Shown here: positions 10,285 to 20,037 of the stretch, in pieces | Numbering within the stretch: the first letter of the stretch is position 1 | Layout: the number at the start of each line of letters is the position of its first letter | IMG/VR virus record: IMGVR_UViG_3300032309_001659 | Span: 1 to 20,856 of that record | Origin: a virus | DNA: 20,856 nucleotides | Reading direction: 5' to 3' (one strand) | The notes under the pieces: model-generated | Told to the model about the DNA's origin: nothing | What the model saw: the letters and a program-made list of their open reading frames with translations, nothing else | Database searches by the model: none | Translations under genes and position numbers: made by a program

Positions 10285-10559
10285 GCTAGTTTCTCCTTGA
10301 GTTCATCGAGGTTGTTTTCTCGTGCGACAAACGTGAAGCCACCTGCTGCGTCAATCTTTCCAAGCTCTCGCTCTTGTAGTGCTGTAAGAGTTCCTCTCCC
10401 TGCCTTGCACTCAATCGCACCGAAAATTCCCTGTACACAAAAAATAACATCAGGAATACCGGCGCGACCATAACCGTTAGCAGGAGGAAAAAAGTAATAG
10501 ATAGAGAGTGCATCAAGCGTCTTCCTTACATTTAGTTTGACTTTGGCTTCTGGCGTCAT
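10251..10559 (-). CDS. VRR-NUC domain nuclease
   Basis: The 102-aa protein has the compact VRR-NUC (PD-(D/E)XK) core: GIPDVIF with D37, then GAIECKAG with E50 and K52, then a conserved TALQ with Q62. Stand-alone VRR-NUC proteins of this size are common in phages and are thought to cut branched DNA, such as Holliday junctions or flaps. The ATG at 10559 follows AAAGGATACAAC. It overlaps the zinc-ribbon gene upstream by 47 nt in a different frame. Its place beside the polymerase fits processing of replication intermediates. Confidence 0.88.
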   Translation of the reverse strand: MTPEAKVKLNVRKTLDALSIYYFFPPANGYGRAGIPDVIFCVQGIFGAIECKAGRGTLTALQERELGKIDAAGGFTFVARENNLDELKEKLACLVQKTSSAA

Positions 10560-10728
10560 GTTGTATCCTTTGTTGAAGTTCTTCGAACTCGTCCTCAGAC
10601 ATCAGTGCCTCGAATGTATAGAACCGGAAGTCGCAAGACAAGCACTTGCGTTTACGCAAGACCCCGCCCCCCAACTTCCGAGAATCATACGTGTGTATTA
10701 CTGTGTGCTCACACGCTGGGCATATCAC
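10513..10728 (-). CDS. NrdR-like zinc-ribbon protein without ATP-cone
   Basis: The 71-aa protein has C3/C6 and C29/C32 around YDSRKLGGG, and continues RKRKCLSCDFRFYTFE. This closely follows the N-terminal zinc ribbon of the ribonucleotide reductase repressor NrdR. The ATP-cone domain that makes up the rest of NrdR is absent and replaced by a short charged helix. It may bind DNA, possibly NrdR boxes, or act as an anti-repressor, but that is inference. The start is GTG at 10728, preceded by AAGGAG at about ten bases; an ATG is not available in frame upstream. It overlaps both neighbours (20 and 47 nt). Confidence 0.75.
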   Translation of the reverse strand: MICPACEHTVIHTYDSRKLGGGVLRKRKCLSCDFRFYTFEALMSEDEFEELQQRIQHDARSQSQTKCKEDA

Positions 10729-12813: not shown

Positions 12814-12837
12814 AAATGGGGTGAACCCACCCCGTTT
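12814..12837. repeat. Dispersed palindrome copy 1
   Basis: Core GGGGTG-AACC-CACCCC (12818-12833) with AAAT/GTTT flanks. On the - strand it is followed by five T residues and then the ribosome site of the 12799 gene. It may terminate or attenuate transcription coming from the peptidase gene. Confidence 0.85.
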
Positions 12838-12842
12838 GTGAT

Positions 12843-14015
12843 TTAGCTAACGTGCATCTCGTCGAACAGCATGGCAAGCACGAGGTCAATATCTTCGCCG
12901 TGATCCAGCGCCTCGTACGCCTCTTCCAGCGCGTCGTAGGTCAGCATCTGTGCGTTCATATGCTTCAATGCCAGCCCCGCATCCTCGGGGTACACCGAGT
13001 CAGCGATCATGTACAGCAGGAACTGTTGTTGCCCATGCTGCGCATCGATCACCGCGTCGATGGCTTCCTCGCGCCGTGGGTCTGGATTGACGTACTTGGT
13101 CTTGATATACGAAGCGGGTTGCTCTTCCATGTAGTCGTACATATCGTACGCATACTTGCCGCCTGAATACGTTTTGTACTCTTGCCACCAGTTGCCCCAC
13201 GTACCGGTGTCATCGTATTTGTTCTCGACTACGCTCGGATCGCGTGATGTGGGAAGGTTGTCCCAGTCGATCTGTACGGCGGCAGAAGAGAGTTGTTGAT
13301 AGTGAACGAGGTTCAAGCTCTCGCTCTGCGTGTGCTCTTTGTCATAGCCGACAGAAATGTTGGTGCACTCGGGGATGATGTCGGTAAACTCAGCGGTGTC
13401 GGTGTACACGCCGGTGTCATCGTTCAACATCATCAGGCTGTCGTTGTGTAGCATCAACGCATCAGCCAGCGCATTGCCAAACTCATCGGAGCAGCAGCGA
13501 CCCCAGCCCTGGTGGGTGATGACGGAGTCGATACCCCGCCGGTCAAACGCAATGGCTCGGTCGAACTGATACAGCAGGTCAGGCATCTTCTCTGCAAGGT
13601 AGCGTGCGCCTACACCGCCGCGCTCCTCGCCCTGCGTGAATATGTAGTAGCCCGCCACGTTGTTGTGGATGAGATGAAACAGCAAGGCAACGCCTGCGCC
13701 GTCATCTGCACCAAGCACGTCACCCTTGGCGTACCAATGTGTCTTGGTCTTGTTGATCTTGTTCTTGCCTTCGCCACGGTGAACGGTGTCGACGTGCGCT
13801 ACGAACAGCGTGCGGTTGGTTGATAAAGAGCGATTGTCCACGTGCAGGTTACCCGCGCCGTCGAAGAACGCCGACTTGTTGAGCGCGAACGGTAGTTGCT
13901 GCCGCAGCCACTCGGTGATGCGTTTGTTGGTTACTGACCCATGTGGGCGCTTGGTTGAGAGTAGCTTGTTCAGTACGGTGAACTGAACAGTACCGTGCAT
14001 GTTGTATGTAGCCAT
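12843..14015 (-). CDS. M20/M28/M42-type zinc peptidase
   Basis: The 390-aa protein shows the two-zinc aminopeptidase/carboxypeptidase core in order: HVDT (H74, D76), GADDGAG (D104, D105), the EER acidic pair (E130, E131), AFDRRG (D158) and a late KEH (H228). These match metal ligands and catalytic Glu of clan MH peptidases. The last ~140 residues, rich in Tyr, Asp and Glu, lie outside the core. It probably cleaves peptides or acetylated or amide-linked small molecules in the host cytoplasm; no signal peptide is seen. AAGGAGAAG precedes the ATG at 14015. Such an enzyme is uncommon in phages. Its neighbours are the 534-aa unknown protein and the 12548 gene. Confidence 0.85.
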   Translation of the reverse strand: MATYNMHGTVQFTVLNKLLSTKRPHGSVTNKRITEWLRQQLPFALNKSAFFDGAGNLHVDNRSLSTNRTLFVAHVDTVHRGEGKNKINKTKTHWYAKGDVLGADDGAGVALLFHLIHNNVAGYYIFTQGEERGGVGARYLAEKMPDLLYQFDRAIAFDRRGIDSVITHQGWGRCCSDEFGNALADALMLHNDSLMMLNDDTGVYTDTAEFTDIIPECTNISVGYDKEHTQSESLNLVHYQQLSSAAVQIDWDNLPTSRDPSVVENKYDDTGTWGNWWQEYKTYSGGKYAYDMYDYMEEQPASYIKTKYVNPDPRREEAIDAVIDAQHGQQQFLLYMIADSVYPEDAGLALKHMNAQMLTYDALEEAYEALDHGEDIDLVLAMLFDEMHVS

Positions 14016-14034
14016 GATTACTTCTCCTTAGTTG

Positions 14035-15639
14035 TTAGATTGTTGCTGGCAGGGTTAGCTCAACGTCAAGGTCAACCTCGAACTCGTCGATGTAGTCCTC
14101 GTGTACAGACACGTGCGCTTGACTGTCGACAACAGACAGCTCGATGCGTTCTGCGAAGTCCTCGTTGATGTGATACGTGTTACCTGACGCATGACACTCC
14201 CACGTGTTGTCTGTATGGGCATAGGTCTGGTCGTGTAGCAGCACCGCATCGTCGATGTGCTCGTACACCTCGTCGTGGTCACAGTACACAACCTTGTCGT
14301 CATCGTGACGCCAGTACTCGTCACGCGTCTCCAGATACACCGCGTTGTCGCTGCAAACTACATCGCCGTTGTGTAGCTCGGTCATGCCGTTGTCAGACAG
14401 GTACTCGGTGTGATACCAAGATTCTGCATCCTCCGACCAGACAGCCTCGTCCTCATGCACGTGGTATCGATGTCCACGTCTGCCGTAGGCGTACTGGTAG
14501 TGGTTGTCGATGCAATCAGTACAGACACGTTGATCGCCGTGAAACCCGACACTACACAGATCATCCGCGTCAACAGACGCCTCGCAATCGTCGCAGTGCA
14601 CACGCTCTTGCTCGTTGGCTCTGCCATCCGTGCGGTCACACAGCCAACCGCCTGACTCGGACACCACCAGTACACGCATCCCGTCAAGGCGATCCTCTTC
14701 GACCGTCTTGATGTTGCCGTCGAGATACGGTGCGAGTATGTTCTCGTGCCAGCCGTCGTTGTTCTCAATACGCAGCAGGTACAGCCCATCCCAACTACTA
14801 GCTTTGCTGAACCCTTGATCGCGCAGCCAGACCTCCAACGCCTCGTCGCTGTGTGAGTACCCGTCTCTCGGTGTGTACGAGCGAACGAACGTCATGCTCT
14901 TGACGTTGACGAGACACCTGCCGACGATGTTGCCACCACCATCGAGGCGCACCGCCGCACGCCAGCCATACGCTGGGGAGTAGGCGACATACGGATGCTG
15001 TTCCCATTCGCAGTCAGCCAAGTCATCCCACTTCATACAGCTATGTGGCCCATGCTGCACGGACCTGACGATCTTTTCTGACGTATCCCACAGCTCGAAC
15101 TTGAAGCTCCCATACCGCAGCGCTACGTCACGCACCACGTGGTCGGGCATGGTCGGGAAGTGCCGCGTCAGATACTTGCCCACGGTCGTGACCACTTGAC
15201 GGTCGTCGTTGCCCCCTCGGTTGTCGCGTGTGTATGCCAGTCGGTTGGGGTCAGTCTCGGATACATGAGGCCACTCGAACACAAGGGCGTGTACCGAGAC
15301 AGGCCGATAGTTGAAGACCGCATCCCGAATGGCTGGGTGTAATCCGAACCGACGTTGTAGGCCACGATGCCAGCGATGCTCTTGGACATCGTCGAAGTTG
15401 AGATGGGGATACTCGTTGTATAGGCGGTATTCGGTGGGATACCAGTCAGCCAACTGCCCCATCCGGTCGAGCACACGGGCTAGGTCTTGCATCACTGACC
15501 ATGCCCGAGCACCGTCGTATTCAAACAACCGATACTCGCGTTGCTTGCGTTGTGCCTCCTCACGAGCATGGCGTAGCCGTAGCTCGAAGTCGGACTCATG
15601 TGGGTTGACCCACGTACTTGTCGTGTGTGTATGTTGCAT
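14035..15639 (-). CDS. 534-aa Cys/His/Asp/Tyr-rich protein of unknown function
   Basis: I do not recognise a defined family. Residues 14-60 are a charged helix; about 190-335 form a domain with HSCMKWDD (C201) and a CLVNVKSMTFVRSY strand. A cysteine cluster of ribbon type follows (C349, C352, C362, C373, C376). From about 395 to 485 there are degenerate units of the form DEAVWSEDAESWYH, DNAVYLETRDEYWRH and DDAVLLHDQTYAH. The C-terminus is strongly acidic. The overall look is of zinc ribbons plus a tandem acidic/aromatic repeat. It has the strong GGAGAAGCAA leader before the ATG at 15639. Binding to nucleic acid or a host protein is possible but not shown. Confidence 0.7.
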   Translation of the reverse strand: MQHTHTTSTWVNPHESDFELRLRHAREEAQRKQREYRLFEYDGARAWSVMQDLARVLDRMGQLADWYPTEYRLYNEYPHLNFDDVQEHRWHRGLQRRFGLHPAIRDAVFNYRPVSVHALVFEWPHVSETDPNRLAYTRDNRGGNDDRQVVTTVGKYLTRHFPTMPDHVVRDVALRYGSFKFELWDTSEKIVRSVQHGPHSCMKWDDLADCEWEQHPYVAYSPAYGWRAAVRLDGGGNIVGRCLVNVKSMTFVRSYTPRDGYSHSDEALEVWLRDQGFSKASSWDGLYLLRIENNDGWHENILAPYLDGNIKTVEEDRLDGMRVLVVSESGGWLCDRTDGRANEQERVHCDDCEASVDADDLCSVGFHGDQRVCTDCIDNHYQYAYGRRGHRYHVHEDEAVWSEDAESWYHTEYLSDNGMTELHNGDVVCSDNAVYLETRDEYWRHDDDKVVYCDHDEVYEHIDDAVLLHDQTYAHTDNTWECHASGNTYHINEDFAERIELSVVDSQAHVSVHEDYIDEFEVDLDVELTLPATI

Positions 15640-15662
15640 TTGCTTCTCCTGTTATTGATTTG

Positions 15663-15688
15663 AAAATGGGGTGGGCTCACCCCGTTTT
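15663..15688. repeat. Dispersed palindrome copy 2
   Basis: Core GGGGTG-GGCT-CACCCC (15668-15683) with AAAAT and GTTTT flanks. It lies between the stop at 15697 and the ribosome site of the 534-aa gene; on the - strand it is followed by ATTTTC. Confidence 0.85.
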
Positions 15689-15696
15689 GCTGCCCA

Positions 15697-15942
15697 TTAC
15701 ATCGGTGCTTCGGTGTCCTCCTTTCCAATGAACCGCTCGAACAAATCCCCGAACGCATCCAACAGCTTGCGTCGGTTGTGTAAGTCAGCGCAGAAGTACG
15801 CTTGGGCTATGCTGCCTGCGAAGTGGCCTCCTTCAGCCTGCATACGGTGCGCGGCACGGTGCAGCGCGGTGTTGTCGTACTTCTCATCGACCCGCATCGG
15901 GCGGGGTAGGTTGGTGATGGTGTGCTGGATTGCGTTAGTCAT
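15697..15942 (-). CDS. Internal in-frame product of the fused gene (81 aa)
   Basis: An ATG at 15942, in the same frame as the longer gene, is preceded by GGAGAAGCAA directly before the start, identical to the leader of the 16113, 15639 and 5008 starts. The 81-aa product is the second part alone (TNAIQHTITNLPRP, then the AAHRMQAEGGHFAG and LLDAFGDLFERF segments). It is very likely made in addition to, or instead of, the fusion. Function unknown. Confidence 0.6.
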   Translation of the reverse strand: MTNAIQHTITNLPRPMRVDEKYDNTALHRAAHRMQAEGGHFAGSIAQAYFCADLHNRRKLLDAFGDLFERFIGKEDTEAPM

Positions 15943-16113
15943 TTGCTTCTCCAATAGTTGCTCCTCCAGTAAGCCGCCGTTTTCCGGCAGAAAGTTTTTA
16001 AGTACATCGGCGCTCAAGAACCCAAGCAGGTCTTTAATGGCGGTCATGTCGCCGTTCAGTACGTCTACCTTTATCTGGTGTAGGACTTTGTCAATTAGTT
16101 GCTGCGTTTTCAT
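15697..16113 (-). CDS. Fused two-part phage protein (138 aa)
   Basis: The ATG at 16113 has the perfect AGGAGAAGCAA leader. Residues 1-46 (QLIDKVLHQIKVDV, GDMTAIKDLL, FLPENG) look like a complete short phage protein of the kind that is usually separate. After a linker (GLLEEQLLEKQ) the frame continues into an 81-aa second part with HRAAHRMQAEGGHFAG and NRRKLLDAFGDLFERF. The linker codons themselves contain the GGAGAAGCAA ribosome site of the second part. This looks like two adjacent genes that lost the stop between them. Function of either part is unknown. Confidence 0.65.
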   Translation of the reverse strand: MKTQQLIDKVLHQIKVDVLNGDMTAIKDLLGFLSADVLKNFLPENGGLLEEQLLEKQMTNAIQHTITNLPRPMRVDEKYDNTALHRAAHRMQAEGGHFAGSIAQAYFCADLHNRRKLLDAFGDLFERFIGKEDTEAPM

Positions 16114-16130
16114 TTGCTTCTCCTGTTGTT

Positions 16131-16226
16131 TTAATAAAAGAAAATCATCACGAGGGCGGCTAGGGTGCAGCCGATCATTGCCCCGCCCAATGCAACGGCG
16201 ATAAGAAACAGTTCGTTCTCATCCAT
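16131..16226 (-). CDS. 31-aa transmembrane mini-protein
   Basis: ATG at 16226 is preceded by GGGAGG at about six bases and the frame ends with TAA at 16131. After an acidic start (MDENELF) almost the whole protein is hydrophobic (IAVALGGAMIG, AALVMIFFY), a single membrane segment. Its start overlaps the upstream gene by 8 nt. A role in the membrane (holin-like, exclusion or regulatory) cannot be separated. Confidence 0.6.
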   Translation of the reverse strand: MDENELFLIAVALGGAMIGCTLAALVMIFFY

Positions 16227-16434
16227 GCGTCGCCTCCCACTTCAACCCATACACGCTGGGGTAGTACTCGCCGCTGAACGCTTGGTCTGACATCTCTTTG
16301 ACGTACACCCTACCTGTTGACCCTGCGTGCTGTGGTTCGCGCCAGCCTGTGACGAACGCAGCGTTGCCTCGGAAGTCATGGACTACGTCGCCTGTCTTGA
16401 CAGGTTGCTTGGTTTTTTCATTGATTAGCTGCAT
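16219..16434 (-). CDS. Conserved hypothetical phage protein
   Basis: The 71-aa protein appears as a small beta-rich fold (KTGDVVHDFRGNAAFVTGW, then GRVYVKEMSD). Proteins of this type with the VVHDFRG motif recur in phages without assigned function. The start at 16434 has CTGAAAGGAGCAACA upstream, a leader shared with the 16713 gene. It is followed by an overlapping 31-aa membrane protein gene. Confidence 0.7.
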   Translation of the reverse strand: MQLINEKTKQPVKTGDVVHDFRGNAAFVTGWREPQHAGSTGRVYVKEMSDQAFSGEYYPSVYGLKWEATHG

Positions 16435-16455
16435 TTTGTTGCTCCTTTCAGTTGG

Positions 16456-16713
16456 TTAGAGTACGGCTATGTACTTACGAAGTACCTCGAAGTCTTCTTG
16501 GGGTATCTCACGCCAGCCATCGTCGCGCACCAGCGTGTGGTCAGCCCAGTACCCTGCCTGATCGGCATCCCAGTCTGCGTTACCTGAACCGCGCCATTCT
16601 CTGGCGACCTTCTTGACGTACCTGTCGGGGCTGCCGCGTGTTGCGAACAGGAACCGGTCGGTGTACTCCATGTCGCCGTTGATCTCTTCGATCTTGCCTA
16701 AGTAGTACTTCAT
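16456..16713 (-). CDS. Hypothetical phage protein
   Basis: This 85-aa protein begins MKYYLGKIEEING and contains FLFATRGSPDRYVKKVAREWRG and an Asp/Trp-rich middle (NADWDADQAGYWAD). It is soluble and acidic. It resembles small phage proteins of unknown function, with no motif I can assign. The start at 16713 carries CTGAAAGGAGCAAC. It lies head-to-tail after the 257-aa gene, separated from it by a palindrome with a U-tract. Confidence 0.68.
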   Translation of the reverse strand: MKYYLGKIEEINGDMEYTDRFLFATRGSPDRYVKKVAREWRGSGNADWDADQAGYWADHTLVRDDGWREIPQEDFEVLRKYIAVL

Positions 16714-16737
16714 GTGTTGCTCCTTTCAGTTAATAAA

Positions 16738-16761
16738 AAACGGGGTGGGCTCACCCCATTT
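16738..16761 (-). terminator. Intrinsic terminator, dispersed palindrome copy 3
   Basis: On the - strand the stop TAA of the 257-aa gene runs straight into a hairpin with core GGGGTG-AGCC-CACCCC and six T residues after it. This fits an intrinsic terminator or attenuator for the 17533-16760 gene. It is one of seven copies of the palindrome family. Confidence 0.75.
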
Positions 16762-17533
16762 ACTCCACGATGATGCCGTGCCATGTGATTGGCAGGGCTT
16801 CGGTCTCAGGCATAGCATCCAGAATGTCTCTGGCTTTGCGTGCCCGATCTACCCTTGCTCGTTGTGCAAGCAAGGCATGATTCTTTTCCTCGTCGTTGTC
16901 GAACCCTTCGCTCGTTGGGTTTAGCTCCATGAGCATCAGGTCTGTTTCCAATACGGCAAGGTCGCTGTTCAACCGCTGCGCGATGCGAGGTTTTAACTTG
17001 GCGTGTACGTCAGGCGGCATGATTCTGGCGAACGGCTTCTTTGTCTTGGCGTAGCGCATCGGCGGTATGGCATCGAACAGGGCTAGTGTTCGCGCTCGGA
17101 TGTGGTCGGGTATCCAGTCAGTCCAATGCTCGCCACCGTTGGGCAGCGGTGGGGTTTTCTCTTTGGCAATGCGTAGCGGTGACTTCGCGTTCGCTCTTCG
17201 CAGTTCCTTGAAGCGGTCGTATAGCGTGGTCGTGACAGTCAGGTAAGCGTTTAGTGCCTCGGCTCGTGCGGCGTTGCGCTCGGGGTCTTTGGCTGTGTAT
17301 CGCAGCATGGCGTGTGTGTTTCTGATCTCGCCGGACAGGGGCAGCATCAGGTGATCCCATAATGGGGTGAGCGCACCCCGTTTTCTGCGTTCGTTTGCTC
17401 GGTGTCGGCGTTGCTTTCCTATTAACTCGACGATGGTGTGGCGTAGGTCGTCGGGGTATTTGCGTTTGATGAGGTGGCGATTCAGTTTGCTCTCGCTCAT
17501 CGCCATGTACGAAGGGTAGTAGTAGGTCGTCAT
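16760..17533 (-). CDS. 257-aa hypothetical protein, basic and helical
   Basis: I do not recognise it. It is strongly basic and helical: KRKYPDDLRHTIVELIGKQRRHR near residue 25, an Arg/Ala-rich middle, and a charged helix near the end (DEEKNHALLAQRARVDRARK). It might bind nucleic acid, but no motif proves that. Codons about 50-57 are encoded by a copy of the dispersed palindrome (KRGALTP), which sits in frame without a stop. The ribosome site before the ATG at 17533 is weak (GTGAG). It is the first gene left of the inverted-repeat element and is followed by a terminator-like hairpin. Confidence 0.65.
   Translation of the reverse strand: MTTYYYPSYMAMSESKLNRHLIKRKYPDDLRHTIVELIGKQRRHRANERRKRGALTPLWDHLMLPLSGEIRNTHAMLRYTAKDPERNAARAEALNAYLTVTTTLYDRFKELRRANAKSPLRIAKEKTPPLPNGGEHWTDWIPDHIRARTLALFDAIPPMRYAKTKKPFARIMPPDVHAKLKPRIAQRLNSDLAVLETDLMLMELNPTSEGFDNDEEKNHALLAQRARVDRARKARDILDAMPETEALPITWHGIIVE
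17361..17383. repeat. Dispersed palindrome copy 4, inside a gene
   Basis: Core GGGGTG-AGCG-CACCCC (17364-17379) with AAT/GTT flanks. It is translated within the 257-aa gene as part of RRKRGALTPLW. All other copies are between genes, so this one suggests an insertion tolerated in frame or a shared RNA-structure role. Confidence 0.8.
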
Positions 17534-17577
17534 GATTTACTCACGTTTCTGTTTCAAAAGTACATTCTGGTGAGCAT

Positions 17578-17628
17578 GGTATCACAGATTTTCCCATGAT
17601 CGTGGGAAAAAAGACGGTGAAAACCCGC
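17578..17628 (+). repeat. Left 51-nt inverted-repeat arm
   Basis: Aligns without gaps to the reverse complement of 17816-17866 with 8 mismatches (43 of 51 identical). The outer 24 bases differ at one place; blocks GATTTTCCCATGATC, GAAAAAAGAC and AAAACCCGC are identical. Inside the left arm, TTTTCCCA and TGGGAAAA also form an 8-bp hairpin. Confidence 0.9.
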
Positions 17629-17685
17629 ATGGGTGCTGGCTTATCGCATAAGTAGGCATAGTATCTATCGATTTTAAAATGTACT

Positions 17686-17720
17686 AGGGGGGAAAAGAAA
17701 AAAAGGGAAAGGAAAAAAGA
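17686..17720 (+). other. 35-base polypurine tract
   Basis: Thirty-five consecutive purines (A/G only) lie on the + strand between the inverted-repeat arms. Such tracts can form triplexes or strand-biased melting. Function is not shown. Confidence 0.85.
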
Positions 17721-17743
17721 CAGAGGATGCCCACGCAGATACA

Positions 17744-17781
17744 TATCTATCTATACCTTTATAAATATAAATAGATAGATA
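17744..17781. repeat. Perfect 11-bp stem in AT-rich core
   Basis: TATCTATCTAT (17744-17754) is the exact reverse complement of ATAGATAGATA (17771-17781), with a 16-base AT-rich loop. It is the lowest-GC segment of the element and a candidate unwinding region. Confidence 0.8.
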
Positions 17782-17815
17782 GTAGATCCACTTTTCTGGA
17801 AACGCCTGTAGTGGC

Positions 17816-17866
17816 GCGGGTTTTGGCTGTCTTTTTTCTACGGATCATGGGAAAATCTATGATACC
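17816..17866 (-). repeat. Right 51-nt inverted-repeat arm
   Basis: Reverse complement partner of 17578-17628; the outer half carries GATCATGGGAAAATC. No internal hairpin equivalent to the left arm's. Confidence 0.9.
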
Positions 17867-17899
17867 TGTCATTTTGCATCTTTTTTGTGTTAGTACCCA

Positions 17900-18097
17900 C
17901 TAACCTCGGGTTATTCGCCGCAGTTGTGGGTACGCTTTGTGCATCTTGGATAGGTCGATGCCTAGCAGGTAGATGCGCTCTTGGTTCCTCGTCTCTCGTG
18001 CGATCTCGTGTTGCCTGTACAGGGTGAGGTAGCGTTGGATGGTGGTGACAGGTAGCTTGGTGATCTGTGCGTGGTGCTGGTACTTGTTGGTGTTCAT
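17900..18097 (-). CDS. Small basic protein, possible helix-turn-helix
   Basis: The 65-aa protein is basic, with ITKLPVTTIQRYLTLYRQHE (about 12-31) resembling a helix-turn-helix, then a charged helix and a LLGIDLSKMHKAYPQLRR end. No family is recognised; DNA binding is a guess. The start follows TGAAAGGAAACATC, the same leader as the 18437 gene. It is the gene immediately right of the inverted-repeat element, so if it binds DNA that element is a plausible target. Confidence 0.6.
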   Translation of the reverse strand: MNTNKYQHHAQITKLPVTTIQRYLTLYRQHEIARETRNQERIYLLGIDLSKMHKAYPQLRRITRG

Positions 18098-18117
18098 GAT
18101 GTTTCCTTTCAGGGTAG

Positions 18118-18141
18118 AAATGGGGTGAGCTCACCCCATTT
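18118..18141. repeat. Dispersed palindrome copy 5 (perfect)
   Basis: A perfect 24-base palindrome: core GGGGTGAGCTCACCCC (18122-18137) with AAAT and ATTT arms. It lies between the 44-aa gene stop and the ribosome site of the 18097 gene. Confidence 0.9.
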
Positions 18142-18142
18142 T

Positions 18143-18277
18143 TTAGTCGACGATGATGGGTAGTGCAAGGCATACCAGATAGATCAGGCCTATCTCTGCG
18201 GGTAGTGATCCGCTTGCCAATAGAATGAAGGTGAGTGCTACGCCGATGGCGAGCGCGAAGTATTGAATGGTTTTCAT
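18143..18277 (-). CDS. 44-aa two-segment membrane protein
   Basis: ATG at 18277 follows GAAAGGACAACC, and TAA is at 18143. Two hydrophobic stretches (about 6-21, FALAIGVALTFILLAS; and about 28-43, IGLIYLVCLALPIIV) are joined by GSLPAE, giving a likely helical hairpin in the inner membrane. Function unknown; holin-like architecture is possible but there is no lysis gene beside it. Confidence 0.6.
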   Translation of the reverse strand: MKTIQYFALAIGVALTFILLASGSLPAEIGLIYLVCLALPIIVD

Positions 18278-18287
18278 GGTTGTCCTT

Positions 18288-18437
18288 TCAGATGGTGAAC
18301 TCGTGGGCTTTGAGAAATGCTATGTCTTCGGGTGATGCCAAGCACACCGCCATCATGTGCTTGTTGAGATACGCCTGAAGTTTGGCGCGGTTGGCTGGTG
18401 TTGGTTTGGTGCGGTAGATGTTGAGCAAGCGTTGCAT
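18288..18437 (-). CDS. 49-aa hypothetical protein
   Basis: The chosen start at 18437 (MQRLLNIYRTK) has TGAAAGGAAACATC directly upstream, identical to the 18097 leader. A longer in-frame reading from 18500 has no ribosome site and crosses this leader and the hairpin before it. The protein is basic at the N-terminus (RTKPTPANRAKLQAYLNKH) and ends with SPEDIAFLKAHEFTI. No family recognised. Confidence 0.55.
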   Translation of the reverse strand: MQRLLNIYRTKPTPANRAKLQAYLNKHMMAVCLASPEDIAFLKAHEFTI

Positions 18438-18481
18438 GATGTTTCCTTTCAGGTAGGTTGGGGCGAGGATAGACAGGAAGT

Positions 18482-18511
18482 GGAACAGGCGCCGCCCCAC
18501 TCGCCTGTTCC
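18482..18511. repeat. 10-bp stem-loop between genes
   Basis: GGAACAGGCG and its exact complement CGCCTGTTCC flank a 10-base loop. It lies between the 18437 start and palindrome copy 6. No U-tract follows on either strand, so a terminator is not supported; an operator or RNA-processing stem is possible. Confidence 0.7.
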
Positions 18512-18520
18512 TCGGAGAAA

Positions 18521-18544
18521 AAACGGGGTGGACTCACCCCATTA
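18521..18544 (-). terminator. Terminator-like palindrome copy 6
   Basis: On the - strand the TAA of the 144-aa gene is followed directly by a hairpin with GGGGTG-AGTC-CACCCC and six T residues. Likely an intrinsic terminator or attenuator after that gene; one of the seven-copy family. Confidence 0.72.
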
Positions 18545-18976
18545 TTCGAAAGCGATCGACGCTTTCAGCTCGGCGATCAGCGCATTGAACTCGGCCTGCG
18601 TCATGCCAGAGTCGAGGATCAGCGATTCGACAGCGGCGTAGGTCTTGCGCGGTGCCTTGACGCTTTCCTTTTTCGCTTGTGTGCTGTGCTTCGCAGCGAA
18701 CTTCGCCTGATCTGGGTGCATCTTGAAAATCAGCGAGAGCATTTGCTCTGCCGCTGTGTCCTTGTCGAACGTCGCCCAGCCGAACTTCTGGCTTTGCTTC
18801 ACCTCGACGCCGTATTCACGCGCCAGAATCGCCGCGACGAAGTCGCGCCAATCGGCCAACTTGAATTGCTTTGAGAGCTGCGCGAGCGCCTCACGATTGC
18901 GTACCTGTTTGCGCTGCAAGTCGATTGCTTCGAGTACCAGAGTTTCGAGAGAGAGGTTTGCTTTTGCGTTTTTCAT
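18542..18976 (-). CDS. 144-aa hypothetical protein, first leftward gene
   Basis: The protein is helical and charged, with LETLVLEAIDLQRKQVRNRE near the N-terminus, WRDFVAAILAREYGVEV, a Lys-rich middle (KHSTQAKKESVKAPRK) and a C-terminal helix (MTQAEFNALIAELKA). No family recognised. Start at 18976 (MKNAK) was preferred over 18991 because AAAGGC lies about six bases upstream of the former. It is the first gene of the leftward block, directly behind a candidate promoter at 19035-19063, so it should be among the earliest expressed. Confidence 0.65.
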   Translation of the reverse strand: MKNAKANLSLETLVLEAIDLQRKQVRNREALAQLSKQFKLADWRDFVAAILAREYGVEVKQSQKFGWATFDKDTAAEQMLSLIFKMHPDQAKFAAKHSTQAKKESVKAPRKTYAAVESLILDSGMTQAEFNALIAELKASIAFE

Positions 18977-19034
18977 GGTATTGCCTTTCATGCTTGGTTA
19001 ATGGAATGTGCCGCCTCGTTCAGCGACAAGACAC

Positions 19035-19063
19035 ATTATCCGCAAATGGGTATTTGATCGAAA
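19035..19063 (-). promoter_or_regulatory. Candidate leftward promoter
   Basis: On the - strand GATAAT (19035-19040) matches five of six -10 bases and lies 17 bases from TTTCGA (19058-19063), a weak -35. A small inverted repeat CAAAT/ATTTG (19043-19056) lies in the spacer, a possible operator. It precedes the 18976 gene. Confidence 0.42.
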
Positions 19064-19065
19064 CG

Positions 19066-19089
19066 AAATGGGGTAGATTTACCCCGTTT
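19066..19089. repeat. Dispersed palindrome copy 7 with compensatory change
   Basis: Core GGGGTA-GATT-TACCCC (19070-19085) with AAAT/GTTT flanks. The last stem pair is A-T where the other copies have G-C, with both arms changed, so the stem is kept. It lies just upstream (- strand) of the 19035-19063 promoter. Confidence 0.85.
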
Positions 19090-19291: not shown

Positions 19292-19316
19292 AAAAAAATG
19301 CCCCGTTTCCGGGGCA
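19292..19316 (-). terminator. Leftward-oriented intrinsic terminator
   Basis: A 7-bp GC-rich stem (TGCCCCG/CGGGGCA, 4-base loop) at 19299-19316 is followed on the - strand by seven T residues (19292-19298). It would stop leftward transcription arriving from the terminase side before the leftward promoters. Confidence 0.75.
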
Positions 19317-19355: not shown

Positions 19356-19382
19356 TTGCACGCTTGCAAATTAGACTATACA
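19356..19382 (+). promoter_or_regulatory. Candidate rightward promoter for terminase genes
   Basis: TTGCAC (19356-19361) and TATACA (19377-19382) are separated by 15 bases, about 30 bases before the small terminase ATG. Direct repeats CTTGCA lie at 19355-19360 and 19363-19368. The short spacer makes it tentative. Confidence 0.35.
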
Positions 19383-19413
19383 CTCGCGCCAACGTGGTTG
19401 CAAGGACCATCGC

Positions 19414-20037
19414 ATGTTTGAACACCTTATTGATTTTGAGCCGCAAGTGCAGAGCAGCGCCGACGGCTTTGTGCCAGTGGAGAAGACCCATCCCACTGAG
19501 CATGTTAACGCCCAGACCAATACCTTGGACTGGCTAAAAGAGCTGGGTGCGGCTGACGAATTTGAAATTGCGACCGAAGCGCAGACCCAAGCCGCCCGCA
19601 CCGCCTTTACCAACCTAGTTACCGCACAGCCCCCCAACCAAACGCACAAAGCGCTAGAACAAATCAAGACTCCCGCTGCGGTTCAGCACCTTGTCGGAAT
19701 GCTAACGGCCTACGATTGGCAGTTTATTAACCAAGCGCAAGAGATTCGCGGCTACGCGATGGCACAGTTGTTGGAAGAAACCAAAAACCCCAGCGCGTCC
19801 ATCCGCCTAAAGGCACTTGCCTTACTGGGCAAAGTCACCGAGGTTGGCCTGTTCACTGAGAAGATCGAAGTTAAGAAGAGCGAGATGACCGACGCTGAGT
19901 TGGAAGCCCGGATTAAGGAAAAACTGGGCAAGATGGCGAAGATCGTGGACATCACCGACGTTAGAGAAGTGCAGGAGATTGATTGTCAAGAGGTAGACAT
20001 AGACGAGGACGCCAGTGAATCCCATACTGAGTCCTGA
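19414..20037 (+). CDS. terS: Terminase small subunit
   Basis: The 207-aa protein lies directly before the large terminase and overlaps its start by 23 nt, the usual arrangement. Its C-terminal half carries a helical domain with RLKALALLGKVTEVGLF and the TEKIEVKKSEMTDAELEARI segment seen in small terminases of many tailed phages, and it ends in an acidic tail (EVDIDEDASE). It would recognise the packaging site and recruit the large subunit. The ATG at 19414 follows AAGGA at seven bases. It is the first gene of the rightward late block. The family call rests on that segment and the neighbour, not on a clear helix-turn-helix. Confidence 0.82.
   Translation: MFEHLIDFEPQVQSSADGFVPVEKTHPTEHVNAQTNTLDWLKELGAADEFEIATEAQTQAARTAFTNLVTAQPPNQTHKALEQIKTPAAVQHLVGMLTAYDWQFINQAQEIRGYAMAQLLEETKNPSASIRLKALALLGKVTEVGLFTEKIEVKKSEMTDAELEARIKEKLGKMAKIVDITDVREVQEIDCQEVDIDEDASESHTES

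Follow-up and report, generated by a model that had tools for sequence, protein, structure and literature searches.

A family of short palindromes marks the head of the early operon in a 20,856-base IMG/VR fragment from an uncultured aquatic tailed phage (IMGVR_UViG_3300032309_001659; this whole stretch is called the window below). We infer that the palindromes are probably DNA sites bound by a homodimer of p149, the product of the first early gene, and that they most likely damp early transcription by a roadblock. This reading rests on the sites themselves, their confinement, their concerted re-spelling in place, their symmetry at the DNA level and the covariation of p149 with their spelling, all of which are computed here.

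Palindrome copies in the window

Exact GGGGTG-N4-CACCCC cores were found at six positions (12818, 15668, 16742, 17364, 18122 and 18525), and a seventh copy reads GGGGTA-GATT-TACCCC at 19070. All seven are flanked by AAY...RTT. When up to two mismatches were allowed, the window gave 8 matches against 0.9 expected, and none of 100 shuffles reached 8; the eighth match (11019) has two mismatches and was not counted as a family member. The seven-copy family at 12.8-19.1 kb that an earlier note on this DNA had described was confirmed, and no further member was found in the window. Six copies lie in intergenic gaps or in the leader, and the copy at 17364 lies within the gene for the 257-residue protein p257. 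The sites are named A to F and H (Table 1).

The earlier note had taken a compensatory change at 19070 as selection for pairing. The change is real and is extended by the relatives described below, in which the sixth pair can be G-C, C-G or A-T, but pairing of an RNA stem is not required for it since a DNA dyad suffices.

Palindrome dialects across the clade

Many relatives with the same gene order were found by protein searches in IMG/VR. A pure DNA motif search also returned multi-copy contigs, which on checking again turned out to be relatives in the same clade. These loci were scanned for repeated perfect palindromes, and a family with at least three members was detected in 94 of the 95 relatives for which 3 kb or more of the segment was available. 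Among control contigs of at least 8 kb, such a family was present in 4 of 41, and three of these four proved to be relatives. Across 20 records of 30-66 kb from relatives, the family was confined to the interval that runs from the p207/terminase divergence to the DNA polymerase gene, so this confinement is a property of the whole clade. The earlier note is supported on this point: the palindromes are a real family under selection, specific to the phage and restricted to one segment.

Nearly every group of relatives has its own spelling of the palindrome, which we call a dialect. There are more than a dozen, among them GGGGTG, GGGGTCA, CGGGTCA, CCGGTCA, GGGGTA, GGGGACA, GGGGAAA, GGGGAAC, GGGGAGA, GGAGAGA, GATTCA, GTGACA and GTTGCA. 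In the first comparison of orthologous slots, L008 had GGGGTG..CACCCC where L062 had GGGGTCA..TGACCCC, with site B of L062 spelled GGGGTC..GACCCC. The change is concerted, that is, all sites of one genome are altered together and in place. Between G026 and G027 the flanks of orthologous sites are 81-94% identical while the core differs, and the re-spelling in place extends to the copy within the p257 gene (GGCGGGGAGAAAGTCTCCCCA versus GGCGGGGAACTTGTTCCCCA). This speaks against newly inserted elements and calls for a shared cause that acts on every site. In L201 and L229 an 18-bp element, GGGGTAGAAACCTACCCC, with an invariant centre was observed, one L201 copy of which is reversed in orientation.

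Probable recognition as double-stranded DNA

Spacer length is constant within a genome for 495 of 517 sites. The spacers occur in pairs of reverse complements (TT 31/AA 15, CTT 19/AAG 8, TT 16/AA 12 and CAG 18/CTG 18; sites are shared by descent among related genomes, so these counts are not independent events), and both orientations are mostly present in the same genome. A spacer that appears constrained only up to its reverse complement would be expected of a double-stranded site and not of an RNA loop. A run of at least five T follows 86 of the 517 sites and a long A run precedes 42, so that T runs are only moderately commoner than A runs and most sites have no T run. The T-run excess is located at the second site (B), where 39% of the sites are followed by one. 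Fixed spacer length, spacers that pair up as reverse complements and the absence of a strong overall T-tract bias lead us to conclude that double-stranded DNA is recognised.

The position of the sites relative to genes was also determined. Sites other than A start a median of 8 nt past a stop codon, and 76% of them have a stop codon within 90 nt, compared with 31% of random positions. When G-U and A-C cases were compared among imperfect copies, the G-T cases came mainly from one slot.

p149 covaries with the dialect

Comparison of G026 with genomes of the same and of different dialects singled out the first early gene, which lies between sites A and B and encodes p149. The p149 proteins of the relatives were gathered by synteny. 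For genome pairs with p207 identity of at least 90%, p149 identity was 0.81 when the dialect was the same and 0.37 when it differed. After regression on the control proteins the dialect effect was z = 23.8 for p149, 1.7 for p257 and 3.9 for p207; genome pairs are not independent and these values are descriptive. In an unbiased scan of protein families for dialect association, p149 ranked first. The dialects require 18 changes on the p149 tree and 24 and 26 on the two control trees, with a minimum of 15.

Two comparisons illustrate the association. L059 and L060 are 94% identical in p257 and 95% in p207 but only 36% in p149, and their dialects differ, in spacer length. Between GGGGAGA and GGGGAAC genomes, which have an even spacer, one column of the N-terminal domain (Ala/Thr) separates all 14 p149 proteins, and the remaining discriminating columns are in the linker and the tail. 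The C-terminal tail itself consists of one of two unrelated modules that are swapped independently of dialect (L025, L037, L032 and L019), which suggests modular recombination and a separate role of the tail.

No Pfam or PHROG family was found for p149, and tblastn gave no match in 50,697 phage records. The AlphaFold2 model is confident (predicted local distance difference test score, pLDDT, 88.8); in it a pair of helices is followed by a beta hairpin, a second pair of helices and a helical tail. In a further fold search, with VIA, the best Z of 4.0 was not interpretable and MarR appeared only weakly, and a sequence-profile search of the PDB returned nothing convincing.

Other proteins were considered as binders. 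A 92-residue XRE-like protein was ruled out, since its recognition helix does not vary between dialects. p257 was rejected with its weak dialect association and a high-confidence, all-helical model that has no PDB match. An open reading frame at G026 32903-33160 appeared to be associated with dialect, but the association is circular since the frame overlaps a palindrome. From these sequence comparisons p149 is the best candidate for the protein that would bind the sites.

A proposed roadblock mechanism

In the proposed mechanism p149 would be made first, and its N-terminal domain would read a half-site. Each double-stranded site of about 16-18 bp would consist of two half-sites of about 7 bp with a fixed spacer of 2-4 bp and would be bound by a p149 homodimer. 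As p149 fills the leader and intergenic sites over the initial 6-8 kb of the early operon, elongating RNA polymerase would be blocked at several points and early transcription shut down or damped. The product of the first gene would then be a feedback silencer that acts by a stoperator-like roadblock. The diversity of dialects would be expected if co-infecting phages can silence each other, similar to the immunity groups of temperate phages.

The location of the promoters bears on this mechanism. In the relatives, early promoter-like sequences, which are consensus matches only, mostly lie 200-400 bp upstream of site A. This places the sites within transcribed DNA and favours a stoperator-like roadblock, whereas an operator that overlaps the promoter is not supported. 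Phage_integrase (tyrosine integrase) was not found in 20 relatives with positive controls, other integrases not having been searched, which makes a lysogeny repressor less likely.

Several observations weigh against the binding of the sites by p149. Some slots have copies with 5-bp arms or altered copies (sites A, D and F of L062), and site D is retained inside the p257 coding sequence. p207 keeps a weak residual association with dialect. Sites A and B flank p149, so linkage could contribute to the association, although the distal sites change too. L084 pairs a dialect resembling GGGGTG with a p149 of another subfamily. In addition, Foldseek gave no significant match for the p149 model in the PDB or BFVD, and no recognised DNA-binding motif was seen in it.

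Alternative explanations

The sites might instead serve the early operon as intrinsic terminators or as hairpins for RNA processing, as the earlier note had suggested. On the coding strand, the copies at 16742, 18525 and 12818 are individually picked up by a scan for terminator-like signals, and the T runs at the second sites point in the same direction. The six T residues that the note saw after stop codons are indeed present at 16742 and 18525, but are read on the minus strand, the gene direction in this segment. Two or three window copies could therefore additionally act as terminators. As a class, however, most of the sites lack the U-tract of intrinsic terminators, and T and A runs are nearly symmetrical; the spacer occurs in both orientations, dialects such as GTTGCA and GTGACA are not GC-rich, one copy is intragenic and all copies of a genome are re-spelled in concert. 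Moreover, the terminator-like hairpins that do occur nearby have stems unrelated to the palindromes and T6-7 tails. We consider it highly unlikely that termination or processing explains the family. The many near-identical short copies in intergenic DNA are also reminiscent of a mobile or self-spreading palindrome, comparable to repetitive extragenic palindromic (REP) or Rickettsia palindromic elements, which the earlier note had offered as a second possibility. Such elements are dispersed genome-wide by transposition, whereas here the slots are orthologous, the flanks are conserved while the core is re-spelled in place, and a single segment is occupied in the 20 large records. This origin is hardly credible.

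If the sites are bound as DNA, p149 could occupy them for a purpose other than transcription, such as protecting early DNA or organising, segregating or pairing genomes. Most sites are away from promoters and intragenic copies exist, and the authors of the work on Cluster O phages reasoned similarly about 17-bp repeats (PMC4351075). A role in transcription agrees better, however, with sites that are restricted to one operon head and lie just past stop codons. No par genes were noted, and we regard such another purpose as rather unlikely. The sites could also serve another phage or host protein, with p149 merely hitch-hiking beside sites A and B. Linkage is possible there and the XRE-like protein is encoded nearby. 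Against this stand the invariant recognition helix of that protein, the top rank of p149 in the scan and the distal sites, which follow p149 over 2-8 kb; for a host factor no difference would be expected between phages that are 95% alike. We give this explanation little credence and retain p149 as the probable binder.

Comparison with known systems

The closest precedent is the 17-bp palindrome of the Cluster O mycobacteriophages such as Corndog, TGTTCGG-N3-CCGAACA, which occurs more than 30 times, often between genes and sometimes within them (PMC4351075). Its AAA/TTT spacer occurs in both orientations, the phages are non-temperate, and it was predicted to be the site of a dimeric DNA-binding protein; neither function nor binding protein was established (PMC4351075). 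The odd-spaced dialects of our clade, such as GGGGTCA-N3-TGACCCC, likewise have two inverted 7-bp arms and a 3-bp spacer, while the window's own dialect is 16 bp long. The Cluster O repeats are genome-wide and have one spelling for the cluster, in contrast to the different sequence, restriction to the early-operon head, many dialects and candidate binder found here.

The stoperators of Cluster A phages (L5, Bxb1) are also many dispersed sites whose genome-specific consensus is correlated with the phage's own repressor (PMC6550527, PMC9283540), and the palindromes resemble them in copy number, dispersal and correlation with a phage-encoded candidate regulator. Cluster A stoperators are asymmetric and oriented, are bound by a monomeric repressor in the solved case and belong to temperate phages (PMC6550527, PMC9283540). 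Our sites differ in being palindromic without a consistent orientation and in the tyrosine integrase not having been found, and p149 is unrelated to the Cluster A repressor, forming a new family without a Pfam, PHROG or isolate-phage match.

Gp5.7 of the lytic phage T7 is likewise a small protein that binds DNA, and it represses early transcription by the host polymerase (PMC5569994), which resembles the early shut-off role proposed for p149. Gp5.7 acts on transcription initiation, and the abstract describes no dialect-specific palindrome array (PMC5569994). No sequence or fold link between p149 and Gp5.7 was found.

In the Planktothrix phage Pag-Yong1 (OL906435), 16 perfect GGTTCA-N3-TGAACC palindromes and additional imperfect ones were found in the 40.8 kb examined. 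The 17-bp architecture is the same and the terminase is related, but the repeats are on both arms and not in one segment, and a profile search found no p149 homologue.

Other features of the window

The window encodes a family-A DNA polymerase, a primase/helicase, an SNF2-type helicase and an exonuclease, with the terminase large subunit divergent. No close isolate phage was found, and two matches to metagenome-assembled genomes were rejected as unsafe host evidence.

Table 1. Coordinates of sites, genes and the candidate promoter in the window
Feature	Position	Strand	Description
p207	19414..20037	+	First gene of the divergent late side, adjoins the terminase large subunit; anchor used to find relatives
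Candidate early promoter	19375..19403	-	TTGCAA-17-TATAGT, about 290 bp upstream of site A; consensus match only
Site A	19067..19088		AATGGGGTA-GATT-TACCCCGTT; in the early-operon leader, past the candidate early promoter; L008 and L062 have the orthologous site
p149	18542..18991	-	First gene of the early operon; putative binder of the sites; translation probably starts at 18976 (144 aa)
Site B	18522..18543		AACGGGGTGGACTCACCCCATT; located at the p149 stop codon; T6 follows on the minus strand
Site C	18119..18140		AATGGGGTGAGCTCACCCCATT; between the 44-aa and 65-aa genes
Site D	17361..17382		AATGGGGTGAGCGCACCCCGTT; within the 257-aa coding sequence; kept in L008, degenerate in L062
p257	16760..17533	-	Conserved all-helical protein, function not assigned; control protein; contains site D
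Site E	16739..16760		AACGGGGTGGGCTCACCCCATT; directly after the 257-aa gene
Site F	15665..15686		AATGGGGTGGGCTCACCCCGTT; before the 534-aa gene
Site H	12815..12836		AATGGGGTGAACCCACCCCGTT; after the peptidase gene; last site

Upstream of the p257 gene, at 17541-17890, the DNA is AT-rich and non-coding, with a 51-nt inverted repeat (17578-17628 and 17816-17866) and TATC/GATA tracts. Read-through translations (e.g. YLSIYLNIYLYIGV) indicate a similar tract at the matching place in relatives. This stretch is possibly a replication origin. A terminator-like hairpin, TGCCCCG-GAAA-CGGGGCA with T7, is present at 19299-19316 (minus strand), about 60 nt after the promoter-like sequence (19403-19375, minus strand). 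Of 90 relatives, several have a similar hairpin with another stem at about 100-120 nt from p207, and 18 have one anywhere in the region. The window hairpin could be an attenuator or a small RNA. A 71-residue protein encoded at 10513-10728 (minus strand) has only the N-terminal zinc ribbon of NrdR (PF22811), the ATP cone being absent.

Significance

Dispersed palindromes in phages had been reported earlier, in Cluster O, without a partner protein; here, many dialects together with a co-varying protein provide a testable pair. The natural dialects offer a specificity code for a new candidate DNA-binding family. We tentatively suggest, as a possibility that falls short of an expectation, that this is an undescribed regulatory system of an abundant uncultured lytic clade, in which the new DNA-binding family p149 and its fast-diversifying palindromes may define mutual-silencing groups among co-infecting phages, resembling immunity without lysogeny. 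The pair thereby opens a route to asking whether lytic phages carry immunity-like silencing groups.

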